Source of the DNA: Xylanimonas protaetiae
GTDB lineage: Bacteria > Actinomycetota > Actinomycetes > Actinomycetales > Cellulomonadaceae
Direction: 5' to 3'
NCBI RefSeq assembly: GCF_004135385.1
Contig: NZ_CP035493.1
Location: 1,550,001-1,614,000 of the forward strand
Length of the DNA stretch: 64,000 nucleotides
Below, in pieces: positions 10,381 through 50,372 of this stretch; the first letter of the stretch is position 1, and each line of letters begins with the position of its first letter. The notes under the pieces are model-generated. The model was not told where the DNA came from. It ran no database searches and was given only the letters and a program-made list of their open reading frames with translations. The position numbers and the translations under genes are program-made.

Positions 10381-10968
10381 ATGGAGATCCGTCACGTCGA
10401 GCTCACCGCCGAGTCCGTGAAGGTGCTCGCCCACCCGCTGCGCTCCCGGCTGCTCTCCCAGCTGCGCCGCGGCGGGCCTGCCACGGCGACCGCGCTCGCC
10501 GCCGCGCTGCGCACCAACTCCGGCGCCACGAGCTACCACCTGCGGCGGCTCGAGGGCGTCGGCCTCGTCGTCGACACGGGCCGCGGGCGCGGCAAGGAGC
10601 GGCTGTGGGCGGCGAGCACCGAGAGCCACGGCTGGCGCAACAGCGCGTTCGCCGACGACGAGGACGCCCGCACCGCGATGAGCTGGCTCGAGCGGGAGTA
10701 CCAGCGCACCTACGACCAGCGCTTCAACGACTGGATCGACGTCGCCGACACCTGGCCGGCGGCCTGGCAGGACGCCCTCGGGCTCGAGGACACCTGGGTG
10801 ACCGTCACGCCGGAGCAGCTCGTGGCGCTCAAGGCGGAGATCGAGGCGGTGGTGCTCCGCTACCACGAGGCGGGCGCCGGCGACCCGCGGGCGCGACGCA
10901 TCGCCCTGTACCGCACCTCGATGCCGCTCGACGCGGAGCTCGCGCCGCCCACCGAGGACGAGCCGTGA
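10381..10968 (+). CDS. ArsR-family winged-helix transcriptional regulator
   Basis: A 195-residue DNA-binding protein with an N-terminal ArsR-like winged helix: HPLRSRLLSQLRRG, then TATALAAALRTNSGATSYHLRRLEGVGLV at about residues 17-62. No metal-binding cysteine pair is present, so it is probably a non-metal member of the family. The C-terminal half is acidic and helical and likely senses the ligand or dimerises. It overlaps the MFS gene by four bases (GTGA), which suggests it controls that transporter. The ATG at 10381 is preferred because of the promoter just upstream; an in-frame ATG at 10345 lies within that promoter. Confidence 0.85.
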   Translation: MEIRHVELTAESVKVLAHPLRSRLLSQLRRGGPATATALAAALRTNSGATSYHLRRLEGVGLVVDTGRGRGKERLWAASTESHGWRNSAFADDEDARTAMSWLEREYQRTYDQRFNDWIDVADTWPAAWQDALGLEDTWVTVTPEQLVALKAEIEAVVLRYHEAGAGDPRARRIALYRTSMPLDAELAPPTEDEP

Positions 10969-37842: not shown

Positions 37843-38124
37843 GTGAGCCTGAACATCAAGAACGAGCGCACGCACGCGCTCGTCCGTGAGCTCGCCGAGC
37901 GGACGGGGCTGTCCCAGACGAGCGCGGTCGAGGAGGCGGTGGTGCGGTACCTGCGGGAGCTGACCGCGAAGGACGCGGACCAGACGGAGGCGGACCGGGT
38001 CGCGGCCAGGCGCGCCCGGATCGACCTGGTCCGAGCGCAGATCGCGGCCACCGTGCACGTACCGCTCCATGTCCGCCAGGAGGCAGACGAGGCGCTGTAC
38101 GACGAGAACGGCCTGCTCCGGTGA
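37843..38124 (+). CDS. vapB: VapB-type antitoxin (Rv0623-like)
   Basis: A 93-residue antitoxin of the Rv0623 type. The N-terminal MSLNIKNERTHALVRELAERTG and SAVEEAVVRYLREL stretch forms the DNA-binding dimerisation part; the C-terminal end would wrap the PIN toxin. The GTG start follows the palindromic operator by 20 bp. The stop overlaps the toxin GTG by four bases, the usual coupling in such modules. Confidence 0.88.
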   Translation: MSLNIKNERTHALVRELAERTGLSQTSAVEEAVVRYLRELTAKDADQTEADRVAARRARIDLVRAQIAATVHVPLHVRQEADEALYDENGLLR

Positions 38125-38527
38125 TCGTCCACACCTCAGCGGTCGTCGCGATCGTGGCCCGGGAGCCCGCGGCGGACGCCCTCGCAGAGATCCTCGCGAC
38201 CGCGCGGGAGGTGATGATCGCCGCCCCACGCTCGTCGAGCTGCAGGCCGTGCTCGAGCACCGCGGCGGGGTGGACGAGGCCCGCGCCGCGCAGAACCTCC
38301 TGCGGTCGGCGGAGGTCGAGGTGGCCGACTTCACGGCGCGGCATGCCGAGGTGGCGCGGCAGGCCTACCGCGACTACGGCCGGGCCAGCGGCCACCCGGC
38401 TCGCCTCAACCTCGGCGACTGCTACGCGTACGCCCTGGCAGCGGTCGCGGACCAACCGCTCCTGTTCGTCGGCGACGACTTCGTGCACACCGACGTCCGG
38501 CCGGCGTACCTCCCGCCGTCGGCATAG
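38121..38527 (+). CDS. vapC: VapC-type PIN-domain toxin (one-base shift, altered first acidic residue)
   Basis: A PIN-domain ribonuclease of about 135 residues after repair of a frameshift at the C-run 38224-38227. The N-terminus reads VIVHTSAVVAIVAREP, where canonical VapC has Asp in place of His at position 4. The other acidic positions remain: Glu in PTLVELQAVLEH, Asp in LNLGDCYAYALA and Asp in FVGDDFVHTD. Loss of the first metal-binding Asp could weaken or abolish RNase activity. The module is otherwise normal: GTGA overlap with vapB and an operator upstream. Confidence 0.78.
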
Positions 38528-40890: not shown

Positions 40891-40938
40891 GCGCGACGGG
40901 GCGAGGGTGAGCGGCGCCGGAGAGAGCGGCGGCCCGGC

Positions 40939-42797
40939 TCATGCGGACACCTTCTCCGCGGCCGGGAGGACAGGGACGAGCGCGTGCTCGGGCAGACGCC
41001 AGCCGGTCGAGACGGCCAGGGCGGGGTCGGTCTGCGGGAAGTCGGAACGGGCGTGCCCGCCGCGCGACTCGGTCCGCGCGAGCGCAGCGGCGACGACGGC
41101 GCGCCCGAGCTCGACAAGGTTCCGATCCTCGAGCGCCCGCACGCCGGCGGCCACCGTCATCGAATCGTCGGTCTGTGCTCTGCTCGTCGGTTCAGACCGA
41201 CGATCAGAACCCAGACCGACGATCTGCTCGGGCGCCGCGGGCGCCGCGGGCGCCGCGGGCTCGGCGGGCGCCGGGAGCGCCGCGAGTCCCGCGAGCGCGT
41301 CGCGTAGCCCGGCGGCGTCTCGCACGAGGCCCGCTCGCTCCCACATGAGCGCCTGCAGCGCGTCGCGGTCCACCTGAGGGGTGTGCCGGTGGGGCCGGAA
41401 CGTGCCGCGCAGCGCGGGCTCCGGCCCGCGGCGCACGTCGTGGTCGGGCAGCGTGCGGGCCGGGGCGGCCGCGGGCCACTGCGCGTCCTCGATCGCCGCG
41501 CCCGCGCGCCACCCGAAGACCAGCGCCTCCAGCAGCGAGTTGGACGCGAGCCGGTTGGCCCCGTGCACGCCGGTGCACGCGGCCTCGCCGACCGCGAACA
41601 GCCCCGGCAGCGACGTCCGCCCGGACAGGTCGGTGCGGATGCCGCCCATCCAGTAGTGCGCGGCCGGGGTGACGGGGACCGGCGCGTCCCAGGAGAACCC
41701 GTGCCGCGCCAGCGTCGTCGTGATGCCTGGGAAACGGCGGGTCATGCGCTCGGCACCGAGCGCGGTCGCGTCCAGCACGACCGGCTCCCCGCCCTGCGCC
41801 GCCATCGCGGCGGCGATCCCGCGGGCGACGACGTCGCGCGGCGCGAGCTCCGCGTCGGGGTGCACGTCGAGCATGAAGCGCCGCCCGGCGGCGTCACGCA
41901 GCACGGCGCCCTCGCCGCGCACGGCCTCGGAGATCAGGGGCGTGCCCGGCACGGCCAGCGCCGTCGGGTGGAACTGGTAGAACTCCAGGTCCGCGACGAC
42001 CGCACCGGCGCGCAGGGCGGCGGCCACGCCGTCGCCCGTGGTCACGTCGGGGTTCGTGGTGTGCGTGAAGAGCTGCCCGGCGCCGCCCGTGGCGAGCACG
42101 ACGGCGTCGGCCCGCAGCGTCGACGACGTCCCGTCGGCGTGGACGACGTCGACGCCGACGACACGGCGCCCGCCGGGGCCTCCACGCGACTGCCCGGCAG
42201 TTCGTCGACTGTCCGTGCCCCGAGCGCACGGACAGTCGACGAACTGCCGGGCAGCTCCGTCTCCGCGACCACCAGGTCGCGCAGGAACGTGTGCTCGTGC
42301 ACCTCGAGGGGCACCGACCGCACCGCGTCGATGAGCGCGATCTCGAGGGACAGGCCGGTCGAGTCGCCGTGCGAGTGCAGGACGCGGTGCGCGGAGTGCG
42401 CGGCCTCGCGCCCCCGGGCCAACGGCGAGCCCGGACCGTCGACGCGGTCGAGCTCGAGGCCGAGCGCGAGCAGGTCGCGCACGCGGTCGGGGCCCTCGGT
42501 GCACAGCAGGCGCACGGCCTCGACGTCGCACAGCCCGGCCCCGGCGACGAGGGTGTCGGCGACGTGGGACTCGATCGAGTCGTCGGGGGACGTCACCGCC
42601 GCGACGCCGCCCTGCGCGTAGCGCGTGTTCGACTCGGGCAGGTCCGCCTTGGTCACGAGGACGACGTCGTGCCCGCGCGAGGCCGCCCGGTAGGCGGCAA
42701 GCAGCCCGGCGGCACCGGAGCCGACGACGATCACTCGGGGTCCCCGCCCGCCCCCAGAGCGAAGCGAGGAGGCGGGTGGGGTGAGGGCGACGCGCAT
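40939..42797 (-). CDS. nadB: L-aspartate oxidase (one-base shift; two palindromic in-frame insertions)
   Basis: NadB oxidises L-aspartate to iminoaspartate with FAD. The N-terminal FAD loop VIVVGSGAAGLLAAYRAASRG, SNTRYAQGGVAAV, HSHGDSTGLSLE, DAVVLATGGAGQLFTHTTNP and HYWMGGIRTDLSGRTSLPGLFAVGEAA are typical. After adding one base at the G-run 42175-42178 the frame is 619 residues, about 60-80 longer than usual. The excess comes from a 65-bp palindrome at 42190-42254 and a repeat-rich segment near 41155-41260. Start overlaps the nadA stop by ATGA. Both halves keep all active-site motifs, so I treat the gene as functional. Confidence 0.85.
41164..41223. repeat. repeat cluster inside nadB
   Basis: CAGACCGACGAT occurs twice in direct orientation (41193-41204 and 41212-41223) and once inverted (41164-41175). 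A 9-bp unit GGCGCCGCG is repeated three times immediately after, at 41231-41257. The reading frame stays open, encoding a hydrophilic then Ala/Pro-rich linker near the NadB C-terminal helical domain. Confidence 0.75.
42190..42254. repeat. perfect 29-bp inverted repeat inside nadB
   Basis: Arms 42190-42218 and 42226-42254 are exact complements around the 7-base loop CCCGAGC. The arm begins CTGCCCGGCAGTTCGTCGAC. On the coding strand it is translated as ELPGSSSTVRALGARTVDEL plus PGS, in frame with the N-terminal half of NadB. It is not at a gene end and so is not a terminator. Confidence 0.9.
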
Positions 42798-44057
42798 CAG
42801 GCGGCCTTCGGCTTCGCGGCGAGCATGCGCTCCAGGGCCACCTTGGCGTCGGCGGCGACGTCGTCGGGCACCGTGACCTGGTTGACCACGCGACCGGAGA
42901 CGAGCTCCTCCAGCACCCAGGCGAGGTAGCCGGGGTGGATGCGGTACATGGTCGAGCACGGGCACACGACGGGGTCGAGGCAGAAGATCGTGTGCTGCGG
43001 GTACTCGGCGGCGAGCCTGTTGACCATGTTGATCTCGGTGCCGATGGCGAACGTCGTCGGCTCGGTCGCGGCGGCCACGGCCTTGCGGATGTAGTCGGTG
43101 GACCCGGCCTCGTCCGCGGCGTCGACGACGGGGCGGGGCACTCGGGGTGCACGATGACGCGGACGCCCGGGTGCTCGGCCCGCGCGGCCTCGATCTGCGA
43201 GACGGTGAACCGCTTGTGGACGGAGCAGAACCCGTGCCAGAGGATGACGCGGGCGTCCAGCAGCTCCTGCTCGGAGGACCCGCCGAGCGGCTTGCGCGGG
43301 TTCCACAGCGGCATCTGCTCCAGCGGCACGCCCATCTTCTTGGCCGTGTTGCGGCCCAGGTGCTGGTCGGGGAAGAACAGCACGCGCTGCCCGCGCTCGA
43401 ACGCCCACTCCAGCACCGTCTCGGCGTTCGACGACGTGCAGACGATGCCGCCGTGGCGGCCGCAGAACGCCTTGAGGTCGGCGGCGGAGTTCATGTAGGT
43501 CACGGGGATGACGGGCACGCGGCCGTCCTCGTCCGGCTCCTCGCCGTAGAGCGCCGACAGCTCGGCCCAGGCGGCCTCGACGGAGTCGATGTCGGCCATG
43601 TCCGCCATCGAGCAGCCTGCGGCGAGGTTGGGCAGGACGACGGCCTGGTCGGGCTTCGCGAGGATGTCCGCCGTCTCGGCCATGAAGTGCACGCCGCAGA
43701 ACACGATGGTCTCGGCGTCGGGGGCGGTCTGGGCCGCGTTGGCGAGCTGGAACGAGTCGCCCAGGAAGTCGGCGTGCTGCACGATCTCGTCGCGCTGGTA
43801 GAAGTGCCCCAGCACGACGACGCGGGAGCCGAGCGTCTCGCGCGCGGCCACGATGCGGGCGTGCAGCTCGGCGTCGCTCGCCTCGCGGTACTCGGCCGGG
43901 AGCGTGCCCTGCCGGGGGCCGACGGGGGCGCGACGTCGTCGAGCGACGCACCCGGGCCGTAGCCGGGCACGGTGTCGAAGTCCCACGGCCCCGCGGCGAG
44001 GTCGGGGTCGCACGTCGCCCCAGGGGTGGCGACGATCTGGAGGTTCACCGAGGTCAT
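42797..44057 (-). CDS. nadA: quinolinate synthase (two one-base shifts)
   Basis: NadA condenses iminoaspartate with dihydroxyacetone phosphate using a [4Fe-4S] cluster. Conserved stretches are VVLGHFYQRDEIVQHADFLG, ETIVFCGVHFMAETADIL, LAAGCSMADM, VIPVTYMNSAADLKAFCGRHGGIVCTSSNA and IFCLDPVVCPCSTMYRIHP. The frame slips twice: at the G-run 43924-43928, near residue 44, and at 43130-43138 (HPECP). One added base at each makes 1263 nt, or 420 residues. It overlaps nrtR and nadB by ATGA. The enzyme is central to the operon, so sequence error is more likely than gene loss. Confidence 0.9.
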
Positions 44058-50302: not shown

Positions 50303-50372
50303 ATCGGAACGTGGGTTCCGTATCGGAGCGTGCATCGCATCGCACGTTCCGATACGGAACCCACGTTCCGAT
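50303..50372. repeat. 31-bp inverted repeat downstream of the tRNA
   Basis: Arms 50303-50333 and 50342-50372 match at 30 of 31 positions around the loop ATCGCATC. Each arm contains the shorter palindrome CGGAACGTGGGTTCCG. It lies between the tRNA terminator and the end of a convergent membrane protein gene, so it may terminate that transcript, but its size and internal repetition are unusual. Confidence 0.85.

Follow-up and report, generated by a model that had tools for sequence, protein, structure and literature searches.

The nadB gene of Xylanimonas protaetiae, which encodes L-aspartate oxidase, carries a perfect palindrome within its coding region, raising the question of what this element is and how it came to lie there. 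We examined it in a 64,000-nt window of the chromosome (NZ_CP035493.1, positions 1,550,001 to 1,614,000), and coordinates below are those of the window unless a contig is named. The principal features are collected in Table 1.

Table 1. Features of the window discussed in the text.
Feature	Position	Strand	Basis
Family A palindrome	42190–42254	.	Hairpin scan, fold compared with shuffles, genome search, alignment
nadB section read before the palindrome (first part of the FAD-binding domain)	42255–42797	−	Frame reading, alignment to relative
nadB section past the palindrome, other frame	40942–42189	−	Frame reading, alignment to relative
Family B palindrome within the C-terminal linker of NadB (in frame)	41164–41223	.	
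57-nt insert near the nadB start	42731–42787 (about)	.	Absent in G010; resembles other places in the genus
Family C palindrome, a separate dispersed family	50303–50372	.	

The palindrome and its site in nadB

An initial annotation had described a 65-bp element with perfect 29-base arms inside nadB. This was verified: the exact 29-nt arms (42190–42218 and 42226–42254) flank a 7-nt loop (42219–42225), and the gene lies on the minus strand. The RNA fold of 42170–42274 was predicted at −77.5 kcal/mol versus a mean of −41.1 for shuffled sequences (z −10.4), and none of 200 shuffles equaled it. The annotation had also proposed that the element is inserted in frame, which fails for the sequence as given. 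Its 65 nt are not a multiple of three, the nadB frame differs on either side, and the NadB of a relative matches the window in two frames with the junction at the palindrome. NadB matches were obtained in 58 of 61 family genomes searched; among the matches listed, only the X. protaetiae protein appears as two partial rows. Compared with the 66-nt copies of the same family (family A, below), the nadB copy is one nucleotide shorter at its center. The extra length of NadB had been attributed to the palindrome and one more insertion. The palindrome does contribute, but the count was too low, as the gene also holds a second palindrome (family B) in frame and, near its start, a 57-nt insert that matches other places in the genus.

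The comparison of NadB homologues suggested in that annotation showed the site to be palindrome-free in relatives. In the congener G010, the nearest relative, the DNA flanking the site is 89% identical and the turn reads LLVEEGTDASRRVVGV, with the palindrome absent. A hairpin scan of nadB returned none in four further congeners (G001, G002, G005, and G006) and only the family B hairpin in G010. We examined the NadB loop in 30 of the 58 genomes with a match: the X. protaetiae hairpin scores 27, while the other 29 loops lack a long hairpin and score 10 or less. By a hand count on the 1chu alignment, the site corresponds approximately to residues 167–176 of E. coli NadB. In G005, the same turn is occupied by an unrelated repeat, GGTTGAGCCTGTCGAAACC, translated as VVEPVET. 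No filled and empty pair of sites was close enough to reveal the exact insertion junctions.

Family A is a dispersed palindromic repeat

The search for further copies of the arm, likewise proposed at the outset, found family A dispersed in the genome, across the genus, and beyond it. On the 3.86-Mb X. protaetiae chromosome, 13 copies align end to end; all measure 66 nt except the nadB copy, which has 65. Aside from the window copy, the own-genome search gave 10 hits with E values of 1.6e-9 or below, plus a weaker one (E 0.02) that can be aligned over its full length; a further copy lies at about 667.9 kb. Since the same palindrome recurs at several places in a single genome, family A qualifies as a dispersed palindromic repeat. 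Our alignment of 34 copies comprises these 13, together with two from G001, five from G006, and six from G002 (all of the same genus), one from G044 (another genus of the same family), six from Antribacter gilvus, and one from Isoptericola sp. AK164. L117, L120, and a 67-nt G006 copy (L138:10651) were left out for length or register, and L114 was positioned by its hairpin.

A consensus search of 121 family genomes, with seven candidates scored per genome, detected family A in five, four of which belong to this genus (X. protaetiae included); G010 had no copy at threshold. The exact core pattern occurred in five stretches of A. gilvus and one of Isoptericola sp. AK164. A covariance model also picks up family B, so its counts describe a wider type: 47 strand-matches at about 24 places in X. 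protaetiae (family B accounting for at least one) and, elsewhere in the genus, 22 to 74 matches in five genomes and 16 in G010, whereas four genomes gave none; three of those four are less than 80% complete. Other origins were also screened. The exact core pattern had no match in viral contigs, nor the consensus in plasmids, and the only known RNA family returned was mir-341, at chance level (36.7 and 33.3 bits for the two strands, against a cut-off of 90).

Conservation across genera is seen for the outer arm, CGGCAGTTCGTCGTC; in the Antribacter and Isoptericola copies, each arm contains a CGGCA-type box more than once. The inner arm varies in step on both sides: both partners have changed in 14 of 27 pairs, and 92.7% of 917 cells are paired. 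Cells changed on both sides numbered 112 versus 40.7 after shuffling (a count that no shuffle out of 500 reached), and in 14 cells one side was changed. In an arm-matching permutation test on 33 rows, from which the nadB copy was excluded, 0 of 10000 permutations reached the observed value over all genomes; for X. protaetiae alone the result was weaker (99 of 10000). Because one-sided changes are few, we infer that arm-to-arm correction at the DNA level fits the pattern better than slow RNA compensation would.

Elsewhere in the X. protaetiae genome (L122:14022–15183, about 678.0–679.2 kb), a gene without a Pfam domain and a UDP-glucose/GDP-mannose dehydrogenase gene adjoin family A palindromes. 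Relative to L138 of G006, both genes are inverted; relative to L139 of G002, the first is, and the alignments end at or near the palindromes. From this arrangement, the palindromes look like candidate inversion breakpoints.

Palindromes and repeats read in frame in other genes

We scored the coding context of 35 copies, namely 12 of family A, nine of family B, and 14 of the 32 near full-length places that family C has in this genome. Five lie inside genes (2/12, 2/9, and 1/14, respectively), and four of the five are in frame. Across the 12 own-genome copies of 66 nt, three to six of the six frames are open, so in-frame entry would not be rare by chance. The family A copy in X. protaetiae ligD is read in frame in the linker that joins Pfam domain LigD_N to DNA_ligase_A_M, and G002 has a family A palindrome in frame at that same linker. 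G006 carries one there as well, with the middle of its LigD in another frame than both ends owing to two frame changes, one near the palindrome and one farther upstream. This case shows that a gene-borne copy in a public assembly need not be in frame, and it slightly lowered our confidence in the explanation preferred below. The G010 linker instead holds the VVEPVET repeat in frame, and G001 and G005 have neither family A nor VVEPVET at this position. As nadB places G010 closer to X. protaetiae than either G002 or G006, the linker pattern requires repeated entry or loss. A second LigD linker of G002 (L143) also contains the VVEPVET repeat in frame, as PPPVVEPVETTPTP.

Family B has 28-nt arms (89% complementary) and a 4-nt loop in the window, and it occurs at nine genome places at E 2.2e-5 or better. 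Its copy in the C-terminal linker of NadB is read in frame in X. protaetiae and in G010, where it is a perfect palindrome with 31-nt arms; another in-frame copy lies in a glucose/sorbosone dehydrogenase (GSDH) domain protein, where the encoded peptide is nearly the same as in NadB. The family C copy found within a gene is likewise read in frame, in a protein that combines biotin carboxylase, BT, and biotin-carrier domains; in the window copy of this family, the box ATCGGAACGTG appears about twice in each arm. A further palindrome family was seen in G010, with 35–36-nt arms (TTTGAACGT...ACGTTCAAA) at L137:3653–3725 and 10590–10660.

The VVEPVET motif differs sharply in abundance within the genus. 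Exact matches, summed over both strands, number 437 in G010, 141 in G009, 134 in G002, 19 in G008, 18 in G005, three in G001, one each in X. protaetiae, G006, and G007, and none in G003 and G004; the reversed motif, used as a control, gave none in all 11 genus genomes. In G010, the repeat forms evenly spaced runs, such as seven copies 34 nt apart at C1:240044–240266.

Origin, mobility, and relation to known elements

We consider the nadB element most probably (at about 0.7) a copy of a dispersed palindromic repeat, RPE- or REP-like in character, inserted in a variable turn of NadB. The family A unit would be 66 nt, or 22 codons, the length of the other aligned own-genome copies, and such a unit would have entered the NadB turn. 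Copies would spread mostly between genes, and those in genes would persist in loops or linkers where the frame stays readable; most likely, the palindrome spreads as a small unit and is kept where harmless. The initial annotation had suggested a small mobile palindrome that tolerates in-frame insertion. The kind of element is borne out by the dispersed copies, the palindrome-free nadB site in relatives, and the in-frame copies in ligD and in families B and C; that the nadB copy itself is in frame is not, and its movement we infer.

The frame change in nadB invites another reading, in which the insertion truly breaks the gene: this strain would be losing both nadA and nadB through decay, with the palindrome contributing to the inactivation of the latter. 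Besides the 65-nt element with its frame change, this account can draw on the adjoining nadA (about 42.8–44.0 kb), which has two single-base deletions relative to G010; because three of the five frame changes sit in nadA and nadB, true decay retains some probability. However, 4 of the 37 G010 genes matched in the window align in changed frames, and nadB and nadA (two changes) are joined by a Usp gene (53.5 kb) and by a gene that we name clpC from its Pfam domains Clp_N, AAA, and UVR (56.8 kb). Such like breaks make assembly errors likelier: the two parts of clpC share 98.8% and 97.3% identity with G010, and because a protein so well kept would hardly be dead, slips in the assembly are the simplest explanation. 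The two NadB parts, too, are 88% and 80% identical to G010, and 0 of 37 genes were frame-broken in the reverse comparison. We therefore regard decay as rather unlikely. An assembly slip behind the one-nucleotide difference in nadB is likely but unproven; this difference would reflect such a slip, or a recent slip in the genome, rather than a long-dead gene. Separately, a small gene at 38119–38511, PIN-domain-like by eye, seems to change frame near 38226.

Two regulatory readings can be set against insertion of a dispersed repeat. The initial annotation had offered a hairpin that lowers expression of nadC and the genes downstream, and a very stable hairpin within an operon could in principle act as a terminator or attenuator for nadC and the desulfurase gene. 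A consensus scan for a GC-rich hairpin followed by a T run found 0 intrinsic terminator sites in 40900–42850, however, the site is not conserved, relatives lack a hairpin there, and sister copies lie in many unrelated places, all of which leaves this function highly improbable. The copies might alternatively be putative binding sites of a conserved DNA-binding protein and not mobile at all, with the outer box under constraint and the inner box free. The core kept across genera and the boxes repeated within the Antribacter and Isoptericola arms would suit such sites, but no protein is known to bind the copies, relatives differ strongly in copy number (G010 has none at threshold), and enzyme linkers would be an odd location for regulatory sites. 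We find this account improbable, and continue with the dispersed repeat.

Copies of such a repeat would move by a transposition-like or copying event. No mobilizer was identified, as a Y1 transposase (PF01797) was not detected in any of the 11 genus genomes, whereas the control gave a signal in 5 of 14. Over 27 copies, the longest flanking direct repeat averaged 4.30 versus 4.40 after shuffling, although the ends are uncertain and a short target duplication could escape this measure. Like MITEs, family A consists of short inverted repeats that look non-autonomous; unlike them, it comes without a detected target duplication or an identified partner transposase.

Closer parallels are found in two other systems. 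Rickettsia palindromic elements (RPEs; Ogata et al., as presented in PMC2229807) of 105–146 bp are dispersed between genes and in frame in conserved protein genes, and they form a long stem-loop. The X. protaetiae palindromes share the dispersal between genes, the long stem-loop, and the in-frame copies in conserved protein genes, the last seen for the ligD copy and families B and C and not for the nadB copy as sequenced. Family A differs in being 66 nt, GC-rich, and from Promicromonosporaceae, and the likeness drawn here is one of arrangement and structure. In the survey of GTAG and CGTC REPs by Di Nocera et al. (2013, PMC3733652), some elements are intragenic, adding 20–30 residues, DNA repair genes included, and different REPs lie near the same recB site in two Xanthomonas species. 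Family A resembles these REPs as a small, sometimes intragenic palindrome, in that different families share one site, and, for the CGTC type, in having no detected Y1 transposase. The CGTC REPs described there have 8–9-bp stems, an unpaired tag at one end, and no dedicated transposase, whereas family A has 27–33 paired positions along its full length. All 27 modeled positions are paired and the CGTC letters fall inside the paired arm, which separates family A from tagged REPs, as does the lack of PF01797 from REP/RAYT systems. Because that survey already reports REPs in repair genes and at recB, neither intragenic nor same-site entry is new in kind; its main text does not mention Actinobacteria.

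Protein-coding palindromes have previously been described in Rickettsia, in Wolbachia, and as tagged REPs; we found no paper on them in Promicromonosporaceae in the open-licence PMC literature. Tentatively, and judged somewhat against the odds, the palindromes may represent an unrecognized mobile class in this family. It would comprise several unrelated families in one genus, spreading by a non-RAYT/Y1 route, entering the same loops and linkers independently (the NadB turn by family A and, in another species, by VVEPVET; the LigD linker by family A in three species and VVEPVET in a fourth), undergoing arm-to-arm DNA correction, and marking gene-inversion breakpoints. Near relatives differ by hundreds of motif copies, as with the 437 VVEPVET matches in G010 against a single one in X. 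protaetiae, and the same loops hold different families. Comparing them could address how palindromes multiply when no transposase is known for them, and by what route functional enzymes acquire new peptide segments.
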